Below, one piece after another: positions 2-4,474 of a stretch of 6,539 nucleotides of DNA (position 1 is its first letter; each line of letters opens with the position of its first letter). Source of the DNA: Rubrobacteraceae bacterium (GTDB lineage: Bacteria > Actinomycetota > Rubrobacteria > Rubrobacterales > Rubrobacteraceae); assembly GCA_021156345.1 (NCBI GenBank), contig JAJNDJ010000060.1, positions 1 through 6,539 on the forward strand, read 5' to 3'. Both the position numbers and the translations under genes were made by a program. The notes beneath the pieces were generated by a model. The model was not told the origin of the DNA. It saw only the letters and a list, made by a program, of their open reading frames with translations, and ran no database searches.

Positions 2-484
2 GGAGACGTCTTCGGCTCGCGGCGCTGCGACTGCGGGGAGCAGCTCGAAGACAGCATGAGGCTCCTGCGCGAGCAGGGGCGCGGCGTTCTCCTCTACCTA
101 AGGCAGGAGGGACGCGGCATCGGGCTCGCGAACAAGATCTCTGCCTACGCGCTCCAGGAGGAGGGACTCGACACCGTCCAGGCGAACCTGGCTCTTGGCC
201 TGCCCGAGGACGCGCGCGACTATCGGGTGGCTGCCGAGATGCTCCTGGACCTCGGCGTGCACAGCGCGGCCTTGCTGACTAACAACCCGGCCAAGATCGA
301 AGGTCTCAGAAGCCACGGCATCCAGGTCGTTGAGCGCCTGCCGGTCCAGGTCGAACCTAACCCCTTTAACCTCAGGTACCTGCGGACGAAGAAAGAGAAG
401 ATGGGACACCTCTTCCCGGCTTCGATCTTGCACGGAGGGTTGTCTGACGAACGGCCCAACGGCCCGGCGAACGGGGCCTCGTGA
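2..484 (+). CDS. ribA: GTP cyclohydrolase II, 3' part (partial, 5' end outside window)
   Basis: The enzyme opens the imidazole ring of GTP with loss of formate and pyrophosphate. The product is 2,5-diamino-6-ribosylamino-4(3H)-pyrimidinone 5'-phosphate, the entry compound of riboflavin-type pathways, made in the cytosol. The reading frame is open from base 2, so 160 C-terminal residues are visible. They include GDVFGSRRCDCGEQL, whose two cysteines (codons 26-28 and 32-34) are two of the three zinc ligands; the third lies upstream of the window. Next come LLYLRQEGRGIGL with the conserved Tyr, the EDARDY catalytic segment, LLTNNPAKIEGL and the C-terminal TKKEKMGHL. After MGHL there is a tail of about 22 residues rich in Gly, Pro and Asn that E. 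coli RibA lacks. The stop overlaps the next start as GTGA, which implies translational coupling. Whether a RibB (DHBP synthase) domain is fused upstream cannot be seen. The family call is very secure; a role in flavin supply rather than a special pathway is not established. Confidence 0.95.
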   Translation, partial: GDVFGSRRCDCGEQLEDSMRLLREQGRGVLLYLRQEGRGIGLANKISAYALQEEGLDTVQANLALGLPEDARDYRVAAEMLLDLGVHSAALLTNNPAKIEGLRSHGIQVVERLPVQVEPNPFNLRYLRTKKEKMGHLFPASILHGGLSDERPNGPANGAS

Positions 485-1128
485 TAGGAGAGCATCCTCC
501 GGCGGGTGGAGAGATCCCTACCCGGCCCTCCGTCACCGTGAGCTACGCGCAGACGCTCGACGGGCGCGTGGCGACCACGACGGGGGAATCAAAGTGGATC
601 AGCTGCCCTGACTCCCTGCGCTTCGCCACGGTTCGCCACGTCCCTGGCACGAACCCCTTGCGCGTGATCGTGGACAGCACCCTGCGCACACCCCCCGACG
701 CCGCCGTGCTCGCTGATGGAGCGGCCCAGGGAACGGTGTTCGCCGTTACGGACCGCGCGCCGGAAGAACGCCGCGAGAGAGTCATCTCTCTGGGCGCCAC
801 CGTCCTCGAGTTGCCTTCTGACCTCGACGGTCGTGTCGACCTCGCTGCCATGCTGGGGGAGCTGGTACCTTCAGGCATCGCCTCGGTGATGGTCGAGGGA
901 GGGGCCACCCTGATCACCGGCTTTTTCAGGGCCGGGCTGGTCGACCGGCTCGCCGTGTGCGTCGCGCCCAAGATTCTGGGCGAAGGAATAGAAGCCATCG
1001 GCGACCTAGGCATACGCGACCTGTCCCAGTCTCTCATCCTCGTCGACGCAGCGGTGGAACCTTACGGGGTGGATCTTATCCTCAGCGGACGCATCGAATA
1101 CCCTGATGGCGTACCGGATCGGGGATGA
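481..1128 (+). CDS. Stand-alone RibD C-terminal domain reductase (DHFR-like fold), apparently internally deleted
   Basis: The family reduces the ribosyl group of the GTP cyclohydrolase II product to ribityl using NADPH, with a dihydrofolate-reductase-like fold. The protein has 215 residues and no N-terminal deaminase domain. Visible marks are TVSYAQTLDGRVA (residues 19-31, with the D27-G28 motif), NPLRVIVDSTLRTP (58-71), and MVEGGATLITGFFRAGLVD (137-155) followed by APKILG (162-167). Family members normally carry about 24 more residues between SLRFA and TVRHV, holding the VG-x-GT-x-x-x-DDP-x-L segment that helps bind cofactor and substrate. Here SLRFA (45-49) runs straight into TVRHVPG (50-56), so the protein may be inactive or the sequence may have lost bases. 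Stand-alone reductases of this kind are known in archaea and fungi, where reduction precedes deamination, which suits a partner of the upstream ring-opening enzyme. The GTG start overlaps the upstream stop by 4 bases. Confidence 0.88.
   Translation: MIGEHPPAGGEIPTRPSVTVSYAQTLDGRVATTTGESKWISCPDSLRFATVRHVPGTNPLRVIVDSTLRTPPDAAVLADGAAQGTVFAVTDRAPEERRERVISLGATVLELPSDLDGRVDLAAMLGELVPSGIASVMVEGGATLITGFFRAGLVDRLAVCVAPKILGEGIEAIGDLGIRDLSQSLILVDAAVEPYGVDLILSGRIEYPDGVPDRG
622..640 (+). repeat. 9-base direct repeat at the apparent deletion junction in the reductase gene
   Basis: TTCGCCACG occurs at 622-630 and again at 632-640, separated by a single G. It lies at the point where the encoded protein jumps from SLRFA to TVRHV, where a segment of about 24 residues is expected in relatives. 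A short direct repeat at such a junction is what replication slippage, or a collapse during assembly, would leave. The repeat is seen directly; the mechanism is inferred. Confidence 0.6.
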
Positions 1129-2158
1129 ACTGAAGGCCAGGGCCCTCTGGTTTACCGCCCCACGCACGCCTACGCTCCGCGCGGAGACGGTAGCATCTCC
1201 TGGACCCGGAGAGGTACGCGTAAAGACGATAGCCTCGGCCGTGAGCGCGGGCACGGAGATGCTGGTCTACCGTGGCGAGGTCCCGCGGGATCTCCGGCTG
1301 GACTTGCCCACACTCGCAGGGAGCTACGAATTCCCGATCAAATACGGTTACGCCGCAGCAGGGCGTGTCCTCGACACGGGTCCTGGCGTCGAACGCCTCT
1401 CTGAGGGAGATCCCGTCTTCGTCCACCATCCGCACCAGGATATCTTCGTCGTTCCCGCACAGATGCCCGTGCGACTCCCCGAGGACCTAGACCCCGTGCT
1501 CGGCGTATTCAGCGCCAACCTCGAGACCGCCCTGAACATCGTACACGACACGCCCGTGCGACTCGGCGAGACGGCCGTGGTCTTCGGCCAGGGCGTCGTC
1601 GGTATCCTCGTGGCCCTCCTCCTGAAACTCGCTGGCGCGGGGCCCGTACTCGTGGTCGACCCTCTCAAGGAGCGCCGCAGGCTGGCGCTCGCCTCGGGTG
1701 CGGATGGCGCATTCGAGCCAATGAGTTCGAAAGAACTTGTCACAGAGATCACGGGCGGGCGTGGGGTTGACGTGGCGGTCGAGACCAGCGGGTCTGGGGC
1801 TGCTTTGCAGAGCGCGATAGACGTCGTGGCGACAGAGGGAACGGTGGTCGTGGCTTCGTGGTACGGCACCAAACCCGTCACGCTCGCGCTCGGGGGACAT
1901 TTCCACAGGGGGAGGGTGAGACTCAGATCCTCGCAGGTCGGTCGTATGAACCCGGAGCTTGCGCCGCGCTGGGACCGGGCCCGGCGTATGGACACGGTTC
2001 TCGGCCTGCTTGGCCGGCTGAAGTTGAGGGAGCTCATCTCTCACCGTATTCCGTTCGAAGAAGCCCCTGAGGCTTACATGCTCCTCGACGAGCGACCCGG
2101 AGAGGCGCTGCAGGTAATCTTTACCTACGAGGGACTCCGAGGAGGCCAGGATGTATGA
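1106..2158 (+). CDS. Medium-chain dehydrogenase/reductase (alcohol dehydrogenase-like) lacking canonical zinc ligands
   Basis: This 350-residue protein has the two-domain layout of the medium-chain dehydrogenase superfamily: a GroES-like N-terminal part (about 11-135) and a Rossmann part (about 150-300). The nucleotide-binding turn is VVFGQGVVG (158-166), with D185 ending the next strand, where an NAD-preferring acidic residue would sit. The zinc-site positions are changed. The usual G-x-C-x-S-D is VSAGTE (46-51), the usual GHE is GYA (81-83), and the four-cysteine structural zinc lobe is absent. Short motifs SAGTEMLVYRGE and PIKYGYAAAG, together with HHPHQ (107-111), recall the BchC-like branch that oxidises a hydroxyethyl side chain. 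A role oxidising a hydroxyl on the pathway intermediate is inferred. The ATG at 1106 overlaps the upstream gene by 23 bases and has no clear ribosome site. A CTG at 1130, preceded by GGGGAT, is a possible alternative because the conserved part begins near residue 10. Confidence 0.88.
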   Translation: MAYRIGDELKARALWFTAPRTPTLRAETVASPGPGEVRVKTIASAVSAGTEMLVYRGEVPRDLRLDLPTLAGSYEFPIKYGYAAAGRVLDTGPGVERLSEGDPVFVHHPHQDIFVVPAQMPVRLPEDLDPVLGVFSANLETALNIVHDTPVRLGETAVVFGQGVVGILVALLLKLAGAGPVLVVDPLKERRRLALASGADGAFEPMSSKELVTEITGGRGVDVAVETSGSGAALQSAIDVVATEGTVVVASWYGTKPVTLALGGHFHRGRVRLRSSQVGRMNPELAPRWDRARRMDTVLGLLGRLKLRELISHRIPFEEAPEAYMLLDERPGEALQVIFTYEGLRGGQDV

Positions 2159-3607: not shown

Positions 3608-3616
3608 AATCCGTAG

Positions 3617-4474
3617 ATGGACCGCAGGGACCTCCGAGAGCAGAACCGGGTGTCATGGAACGCTGTTGTACGTGCCCACGACAGTCATCGCGGGGACCTC
3701 TCGCGGTTCTTCAGTGAGGGCGGCAGCACGCTTTTTCAGGAGGAACTTGATCTTCTCGGCGAACTCGAAGGAAGATCCCTCGTTCACCTCCAGTGCAACT
3801 CAGGGGGCGACTCGATAAGCCTGGCGAGACTCGGCGCGACGGTTTCGGGAGTGGATGCAAGCGACGAAGCCGTCTCCTCAGCCCGGGATCTGGCGGAGAG
3901 AACCGGCATTAGGGCCACGTTCGAGCGCGCCGACGTGTATGACTGGCTGAAGGAAGCGTCACGCGAAGGCAGGCGCTTCGACGCCGCCTTCGCCTCCTAC
4001 GGTGTGGTCTGCTGGCTGCCCGACCTCGGAACCTGGGCCGGGGGTATCGCCGGTATCCTGAACCCCGGCGGGCGCTTGGTGCTGGTGGACTTCCATCCTG
4101 TGGCCGACATTTTCGACAAAGACTGGAACCACGTCCACGACTATCCCTCCGGCGGGGACCCGCTACTCCTGGAAGAGGGCGTCGACGACTACGTGGCCGC
4201 GTCCTGCGGAGGTCTCACCCCCGCCGGTTTCGTCGAGGGGGATCGAGACTTTCAGAACCCCGAGCGCTGCTATCTCTTTCGGTGGGGACTCGGGGAGGTT
4301 GTTACGGCGCTGGCCGAAGCGGGACTCAGGATCACGGCTCTCGAAGAATACCCTTACGCGAACGGGGAACGGAAGTTCATCGGGATGCGCGAGCAACGAG
4401 CAAAACGAATGGTCCCGCCCGAAGACATCCCAACCGTCCCTTTGATGTACGGCATCCGTGCAGAGAAAGTTTAG
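3617..4474 (+). CDS. Class I SAM-dependent methyltransferase
   Basis: The 285-residue protein has a Rossmann-type methyltransferase core. Motif I is LVHLQCNSGGDSISLARLGA (55-74), the second strand ends in GVDAS with D80 for the SAM ribose, and RADVYDWL and FDAAFASYGVVCWLPDL follow. The post-core strand is NPGGRLVLVDFHP. The N-terminal EQNRVSWNAVVRAHDSH (8-24) is the usual lead-in of this soluble small-molecule branch, and the long C-terminal lid ends in PLMYGIRAEKV. The acceptor atom cannot be inferred. The gene begins nine bases after the glycosyltransferase stop, at an ATG with only a weak upstream purine stretch, so it probably depends on read-through from the operon. It is the last gene of the cluster and faces a convergent antiporter gene. 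A final tailoring methylation of the cluster product is inferred from position. Confidence 0.9.
   Translation: MDRRDLREQNRVSWNAVVRAHDSHRGDLSRFFSEGGSTLFQEELDLLGELEGRSLVHLQCNSGGDSISLARLGATVSGVDASDEAVSSARDLAERTGIRATFERADVYDWLKEASREGRRFDAAFASYGVVCWLPDLGTWAGGIAGILNPGGRLVLVDFHPVADIFDKDWNHVHDYPSGGDPLLLEEGVDDYVAASCGGLTPAGFVEGDRDFQNPERCYLFRWGLGEVVTALAEAGLRITALEEYPYANGERKFIGMREQRAKRMVPPEDIPTVPLMYGIRAEKV

Follow-up and report, generated by a model that had tools for sequence, protein, structure and literature searches.

What does a bacterium make from guanosine triphosphate (GTP) with the six-gene operon found within positions 1 to 6,539 of contig JAJNDJ010000060.1, from a Rubrobacteraceae bacterium (GenBank assembly GCA_021156345.1)? 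This stretch of 6,539 nucleotides, analysed whole, is referred to as the window. Products of GTP cyclohydrolases feed flavins, folates, deazaflavins and deazapurines, and the operon combines a GTP cyclohydrolase with a reductase, a dehydrogenase, a member of the 6-pyruvoyltetrahydropterin synthase (PTPS) family, a glycosyltransferase and a methyltransferase. Judged by its sequences, the gene set probably leads from GTP to a vitamin-like compound with a sugar and a methyl group, not to riboflavin. That the genes serve a dedicated, non-riboflavin pathway from GTP can be held with considerable confidence. With rather less assurance, but as the reading we favor, the operon represents in Rubrobacteraceae a 'PTPS-IV cluster' that is conserved widely and serves to make a GTP-derived compound that is not riboflavin, coenzyme F420 or queuosine; the steps beyond what the genes themselves establish are worded below in the conditional.

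The initial annotation placed the six genes on one strand. Pfam matches agree with this and assign the following families:

2-484, + strand: GTP cyclohydrolase II (GCH II; GTP_cyclohydro2), C-terminal 160 residues, with the 5' end of the gene beyond the window (PF00925, E 4e-48)
481-1128, + strand: RibD_C-type pyrimidine reductase without a deaminase domain (PF01872, E 5e-37)
1106-2158, + strand: medium-chain dehydrogenase/reductase (MDR) of the ADH_zinc_N family (PF00107/PF08240), whose relatives are annotated 'zinc-binding alcohol dehydrogenase'
2151-2528, + strand: PTPS-IV-like T-fold protein with the motif FGPATRTHGH (PF01242, E 1e-30)
2540-3607, + strand: glycosyltransferase of family 4 (GT4), probable CTG start (PF00534/PF13439)
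3617-4474, + strand: class I S-adenosylmethionine-dependent methyltransferase (PF13649 and related Pfam families)

The recomputed spacings of -4, -23, -8, +11 and +9 bases agree with those of the initial annotation. The value of +11 between the PTPS and GT4 genes requires that GT4 begin with CTG at 2540, since an ordinary start codon first appears in the window as GTG 2561. This site was located in 18 of 26 relatives and reads ATG, GTG or TTG in 16 of them (TTT in L003, CTC in L012); CTG 2540 is the probable start codon of the window's GT4 gene. The contig is of Rubrobacter type: the window's PTPS shares 98% identity with metagenome proteins, and its organism-named matches are from Rubrobacter sp.

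The arrangement is well conserved within the family. The order RibD_C, dehydrogenase, PTPS, GT4, methyltransferase is kept in 17 of 18 Rubrobacteraceae regions, the eighteenth ending at a contig end, and chance is therefore not a reasonable explanation for it. PTPS relatives (E <= 1e-6) occur in 28 of 39 Rubrobacteraceae genomes, 25 as strong matches and three as classical PTPS only. In an Actinomycetota sample searched with the PTPS profile, 27 of 296 genomes score at least 141 bits, and 43 others score 76-103 bits. The starting enzyme is the variable part. GCH II, which the initial annotation took as the entry point, is present in the window but is optional in the family, being inserted in the same way in only two of the 18 regions (L140 and L143); a further GCH II/RibD_C pair is found on contig C21 of genome G001. 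An acyltransferase gene (15/18 regions) and a major facilitator superfamily (MFS) gene (9/18) share the side and strand of FolB, which is divergent and 5' of the cluster in 17 of the 18.

The gene set extends well beyond the Rubrobacteraceae. A scan of species genomes with the PTPS alignment confirmed at least 492 relatives; the best 80 loci come from Rubrobacter, Chloroflexota, Alpha- and Gammaproteobacteria, one member of the Burkholderiaceae, Streptomyces and other Actinomycetes, Gemmatimonadota, Acidobacteriota and Myxococcota. A plasmid search with the dehydrogenase gave 37 records, several of them haloarchaeal; 16 of the 25 listed were tabulated, and two more were examined afterwards. 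The 80 loci, the 16 plasmid loci and the 18 Rubrobacteraceae regions make a table of 114 loci, many ending at contig ends. Its taxon groups were set by hand from record titles, the names of extra neighbour families come from Pfam scans of representatives, and the neighbour families were clustered from divergent pairs only, with some antisense reading frames remaining. PTPS is found in 111 loci, the dehydrogenase in 106, GT4 in 101, RibD_C in 78, GCH II in 47 and GTP cyclohydrolase III (GCH III) in 4. Methyltransferases are of several kinds: the window's family in 26 loci, a second family in 52 and an FkbM methyltransferase in 21. Other recurrent neighbours are a CDP-alcohol phosphatidyltransferase (52), an LPG-synthase-like membrane protein (40), the creatininase family (31) and FolB (29). 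GT4 is counted in 16 of 22 Rubrobacter loci in the table and in 17 of the 18 regions fetched at depth; the low table count arises because in several loci the reading frame that contains GT4 had been put into a different family.

Linkage is specific to one type of PTPS. In a control with 28 genomes and four loci of other Rubrobacteraceae (loci returned for 30 places; profiles built from cluster loci), the dehydrogenase and GT4 both flank 20 of 20 loci of FGPA-type PTPS in pieces of 2.7-3.3 kb, whereas dehydrogenase, GT4 or RibD_C lies beside none of 14 loci of classical PTPS in pieces of 2.0-3.3 kb (Fisher p 7e-10). Distances between partner proteins correlate, with r from 0.64 to 0.94 (0.94 for PTPS and dehydrogenase, 0.91 for RibD_C and GCH II), and for each pair none of 200 permutations was as high. 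A quick tree of 63 dehydrogenases, which carries a long-branch warning, sets Rubrobacter, Chloroflexota and Halobacteria apart from the rest with an SH-like approximate likelihood ratio (SH-aLRT) support of 100. The co-conservation of dehydrogenase, glycosyltransferase and methyltransferase with the GTP-derived genes, on which the initial annotation depended, is borne out both in the Rubrobacteraceae regions and across the 114 loci, and the conserved gene set supports its proposal of a pathway from GTP that leads neither to riboflavin nor to queuosine.

The T-fold protein can be classed as PTPS-IV-like, not as QueD. It belongs to the PTPS family, as first annotated, but the Cys on which ordinary PTPS or QueD chemistry depends is absent: in all 112 PTPS rows, the window included, the catalytic Cys of CxxxHGH is replaced, by Ala in 105 and Glu in 7. 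His14, His27 and the anchoring Glu112 are kept in 112/112 rows. His29 is found in 44 (window, Rubrobacter, Chloroflexota, Halobacteria), with Ala in the other 68. Against the QueD model TIGR03367 the window protein scores 62.8 bits, below the cut-off of 89.25. The PTPS-IV signature, FGPAQ, is present in every PTPS row of the other bacterial groups; it reads FGPAT in the window and mostly FGPA[TSAVM] in Rubrobacter and Chloroflexota, with two cases of FGPAQ and one of FGSAT. Haloarchaeal plasmid proteins (L082, L157-L162; seven rows) show a third motif type, PG[PQ]EGxxHSH. In a cluster of 561 sequences described in the available part of PMC5445326, PF00925 and PF01872 are neighbours of FGPAQ proteins, and both lie 5' of the PTPS gene in the window's operon. 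The window protein would then be a related sequence in the same gene neighbourhood with a relaxed signature.

The enzyme that opens GTP differs with lineage. The window's GCH II keeps Cys65, Cys67, Tyr105, Asp126 and Arg128 (E. coli RibA numbering), the first zinc Cys lying beyond the window. With these residues in place, Cys65 and Cys67 being zinc ligands, the canonical GCH II reaction is expected. Tyr105 is replaced by Met in nine of nine Streptomyces loci, each with a creatininase-family gene, and is kept in the remaining 32 readable GCH II loci, 16 of which also carry such a gene (E. coli, the window and the unreadable L056 were dropped from the count). A rule in which the Met type needs a formamidase and the Tyr type does not fails on these figures (9/9 and 16/32; Fisher p 0.007), and the nine Met cases, all from one genus, amount to one event. 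In haloarchaea GCH III adjoins the dehydrogenase in four of nine table loci, with PF05165 confirmed for one. The use of different first enzymes suggests a common early intermediate, 2,5-diamino-6-ribosylamino-4(3H)-pyrimidinone 5'-phosphate.

The remaining enzymes can be placed in families with varying precision. The best solved relatives of RibD_C are 6p8c and 2azn, diaminopyrimidine/uracil reductases, and no deaminase domain occurs in any of the 11 cluster RibD_C proteins scanned. Zinc-dependent MDR alcohol dehydrogenases hold the catalytic zinc through Cys and GHE motifs. The cluster's dehydrogenase is confirmed as an MDR protein, but the 'zinc' in its original label is not matched by the usual ligand motifs, which are replaced by conserved SxGTE and KYGY; over 107 rows, Cys appears in at most 57 at any column. 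The enzyme falls outside the zinc-dependent group by these motifs, and its NCBIfam similarities, to IolM and BchC, are both under the cut-offs. GT4 is closest among solved structures to 7qsg, a D-inositol 3-phosphate glycosyltransferase, and weakly resembles the tetrahydrobiopterin glucosyltransferase 5zer (E 3e-6); the methyltransferase is closest to MitM. Solved relatives were tried as a guide to the substrates of these two enzymes and gave only general families. A methyltransferase of the window's family is present at 19 of the 22 loci from Rubrobacter and at 7 of the 14 from Chloroflexota.

From these parts a pathway can be proposed in which we infer every substrate, the order of the reactions and the chemistry beyond the opening of GTP. 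GTP would be opened to 2,5-diamino-6-ribosylamino-4(3H)-pyrimidinone 5'-phosphate, by GCH II here and by other enzymes elsewhere, and the stand-alone RibD_C would reduce its ribosyl chain to ribityl. As the set has no deaminase, the 2-amino group would be retained and bound by the conserved T-fold Glu of PTPS-IV; a kept 2-amino group fits a kept anchoring Glu, as in T-fold enzymes in general. PTPS-IV, though it lacks the usual Cys, would then close a ring or act on the side chain, the dehydrogenase would carry out a redox change on the side chain, GT4 would attach a sugar and the methyltransferase would methylate. The product might finally, in many lineages, be linked to a lipid or an acyl group and carried across the membrane, by the acyltransferase and MFS protein in Rubrobacter and Chloroploca, and by the CDP-alcohol phosphatidyltransferase and LPG-synthase-like membrane protein in other lineages. 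Both the acyltransferase group and the MFS group consist of Rubrobacter and Chloroflexota loci only, and the two occur together in three of 14 Chloroflexota loci (Chloroploca L006 and L007, Oscillochloris L010). The product would be an aminopyrimidine or a pterin that is not deaminated, carries a sugar and a methyl group, and may be linked to lipid and exported. A bolder version, offered tentatively as a possibility somewhat unlikely to hold in full, is a branch common to several bacterial phyla and haloarchaea that yields a new, non-deaminated ribityl-pyrimidine or N8-ribityl-pterin, glycosylated, methylated, lipid-anchored or acylated, and exported as a redox-active or light-absorbing compound of the membrane or cell exterior, PTPS-IV acting by a mechanism new to T-fold enzymes.

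Since GCH II and RibD_C are riboflavin enzymes, the cluster could be a displaced portion of riboflavin synthesis, all the more as the window's own 5' genes lie beyond its edge; no deaminase, lumazine synthase or riboflavin synthase is present in the window, which is cut on that side. Relatives largely contradict this explanation, which is very improbable. In Rubrobacter genomes G001-G004 lumazine synthase (RibH), Lum_binding and full RibD are on contigs other than the cluster's, and the cluster RibD_C proteins scanned lack the deaminase. There are also two Chloroploca genomes and one of Oscillochloris (G005, G006 and G008; completeness not stated), in which DHBP synthase (ribB), lumazine synthase (ribH) and a full RibD over the cut-off are each found in 0/3. 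These organisms, which appear to lack most of the riboflavin pathway and would seem to need external flavin, nevertheless each keep the cluster RibD_C and a single GCH II, the latter on the contig that carries PTPS. This argues for a pathway other than that of riboflavin. Coenzyme F420 also derives from a ribitylaminopyrimidine. A part in its synthesis, about as improbable, finds some encouragement in the accessible part of PMC5041015, where PTPS-IV is named as an F420 enzyme on unpublished information, but CofH passes its cut-off in just 10 of 28 cluster-bearing genomes; the other 18, among them four of Halomonas/Chromohalobacter and G005-G009, speak against it. The automatic label '6-carboxytetrahydropterin synthase' suggests queuosine or another 7-deazapurine. 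This is the least probable of the three, for all that the protein is of the PTPS family and weakly matches the QueD model, given the missing Cys and hence CxxxHGH motif and the separate classical PTPS proteins in some of the same genomes. Among solved structures the window's PTPS is closest to SCO6650 of Streptomyces coelicolor (3d7j, E 2e-13), a protein said to be inactive in the PTPS reaction.

A more serious competitor, though still unlikely, comes from FolB, a dihydroneopterin enzyme. Here dihydroneopterin from GTP cyclohydrolase I (GCH I), processed by FolB and PTPS-IV, would be the scaffold that is glycosylated and methylated, and GCH II and RibD_C would account for a further, ribityl-bearing moiety or for a compound apart from it. 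FolB accompanies the cluster in eight of 14 Chloroflexota loci as well as in nearly all the Rubrobacteraceae regions. No other FolB was found in 14 of the 15 genomes of Rubrobacteraceae that were tested (the exception is G001), nor in G005, G006, G008 and G009; in G007 the sole FolB adjoins RibD_C, on a contig other than that of PTPS. GCH I is found in 25 of 26 genomes, and most Rubrobacter regions lack GCH II. Yet FolB is found in 0/78 table loci outside Rubrobacter and Chloroflexota, where GCH II or III is common, RibD_C is conserved wherever FolB is, and an only FolB may simply serve folate. The GCH I and HPPK genes, where found, are located away from the cluster.

Several observations weigh against the dedicated GTP pathway proposed above. 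FolB beside the cluster could mean a folate-type substrate from GCH I. GCH II was not found in 16 of the 18 Rubrobacteraceae regions, where the pathway must use the riboflavin enzyme or start elsewhere, and GCH III was not found in five of nine haloarchaeal table loci; a tenth locus, L196, has none annotated either. One locus, L081, has GCH III and the dehydrogenase without PTPS, next to a transposase. RibD_C is in none of the nine haloarchaeal loci and in only four of 16 Actinomycetes loci; the dehydrogenase was not found in eight of 114 loci, including L019 and L036, which, with 10 kb on both sides, show PTPS and GT4 only. A Lum_binding protein is present in G005 and G006, not in G008. No Rubrobacter or Chloroflexota table locus holds the CDP-alcohol transferase, the LPG-synthase-like protein or a creatininase, which weakens the idea of one common lipid theme. 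Although a creatininase-family formamidase acting on a formylated intermediate is established in Sinorhizobium and Brucella, two more distant homologues failed to complement, according to the consulted part of PMC9478397, and not every creatininase-family protein is such a formamidase. No product or pathway for the cluster appears in the literature searched (most subscription papers lie outside it), and the lack of a product or activity also counts.

The window's own RibD_C copy adds a further difficulty. Compared with near-identical proteins of other assemblies, it shows an in-frame gap of 24 codons at nt 627/628; three of these proteins (P0122-P0124) match it at 215 of 215 residues and have 24 extra. 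The missing residues include the conserved segment GxGTxxxDxPxL, the rest of the family match being strong. A pattern of this type is absent in four of 120 RibD_C protein matches, the window's entry (P0121) among them, and is matched in 67 of 78 loci carrying RibD_C. The gap may be either a strain deletion or an assembly error, and if it is real this copy may be inactive. Conclusions at the family level rest on the relatives, not on the window copy, and are unaffected.

Beyond the operon the window holds these further genes:

4513-5547, - strand: calcium/proton exchanger, present 3' of the cluster in nine of the 18 Rubrobacteraceae regions
5639-6397, + strand: PHP-domain histidinol-phosphatase-like gene, found 3' of the cluster in 11 of 18
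6394-6539: AlaX-like gene with a 145-base gap (by alignment) near 6413 relative to L139 and L140, with the frame lost

Other lineages have neighbours of their own. A cytochrome b gene adjoins the cluster in Rhizobiaceae plasmids and Thiodictyon (L084, L163, L164, L085), that of L163 being cytochrome b561 by Pfam. In the Rhodobacterales plasmid clusters L088 and L165 a ribokinase or PfkB kinase adjoins, together with an inositol-monophosphatase-family gene in L165; these are possible pathway kinases and a possible phosphatase.

If the proposal is right, bacteria and archaea share a further conserved branch from GTP, leading to a new class of vitamin-like compound. It would account for the genes labelled '6-carboxytetrahydropterin synthase' or 'RibD family protein' in this set, and the older question of what SCO6650- and SCO6655-type proteins do becomes testable. 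A 2026 review (PMC13259868) states, in its available part, that an efflux system for pterins is yet to be identified; the MFS protein of the Rubrobacter and Chloroploca clusters is a candidate pterin exporter.

Streptomyces provides one of the nearest known counterparts. Its loci have the same set of PTPS, dehydrogenase and GT4, next to a GCH II of the Met type and a gene of the creatininase family. This fits SCO6655, reportedly a Met variant that releases the formylated intermediate, which presumably lies in one cluster with SCO6650. The Streptomyces PTPS has HGA where the window has HGH, the window's GCH II retains Tyr105, and the FolB, acyltransferase and MFS groups are restricted to Rubrobacter and Chloroflexota loci. 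In the portion of PMC2853524 at hand, SCO6655 is among genes with expression opposite to the predicted flux, most of them up in stationary phase. The word 'undescribed' in the initial annotation holds for the family only in part, as SCO6650 is solved and PF00925 and PF01872 had already been placed beside PTPS-IV. The PTPS-IV subfamily (COG0720) shares the FGPA motif and these neighbours with the window, from which it differs in FGPAQ for FGPAT; to the neighbours given in the available text of PMC5445326 can now be added the dehydrogenase, GT4, methyltransferase, creatininase, CDP-alcohol transferase, FolB and the exchange for GCH III.

The archaeal riboflavin route resembles the cluster in its GCH III with a separate formamidase (ArfB; PMC9478397, as far as available) and in the reductases 6p8c and 2azn, nearest to RibD_C. 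The cluster differs in having no lumazine or riboflavin synthase, and in its extra dehydrogenase, PTPS, glycosyltransferase and methyltransferase. In cyanobacteria and Chlorobium, pterin glycosides arise by a route that begins with GTP cyclohydrolase I and includes an active PTPS. They are similar in joining a pterin-type compound with a glycosyltransferase, to which the weak match of GT4 to 5zer corresponds, whereas the cluster begins with GCH II or III and has a PTPS without the Cys.

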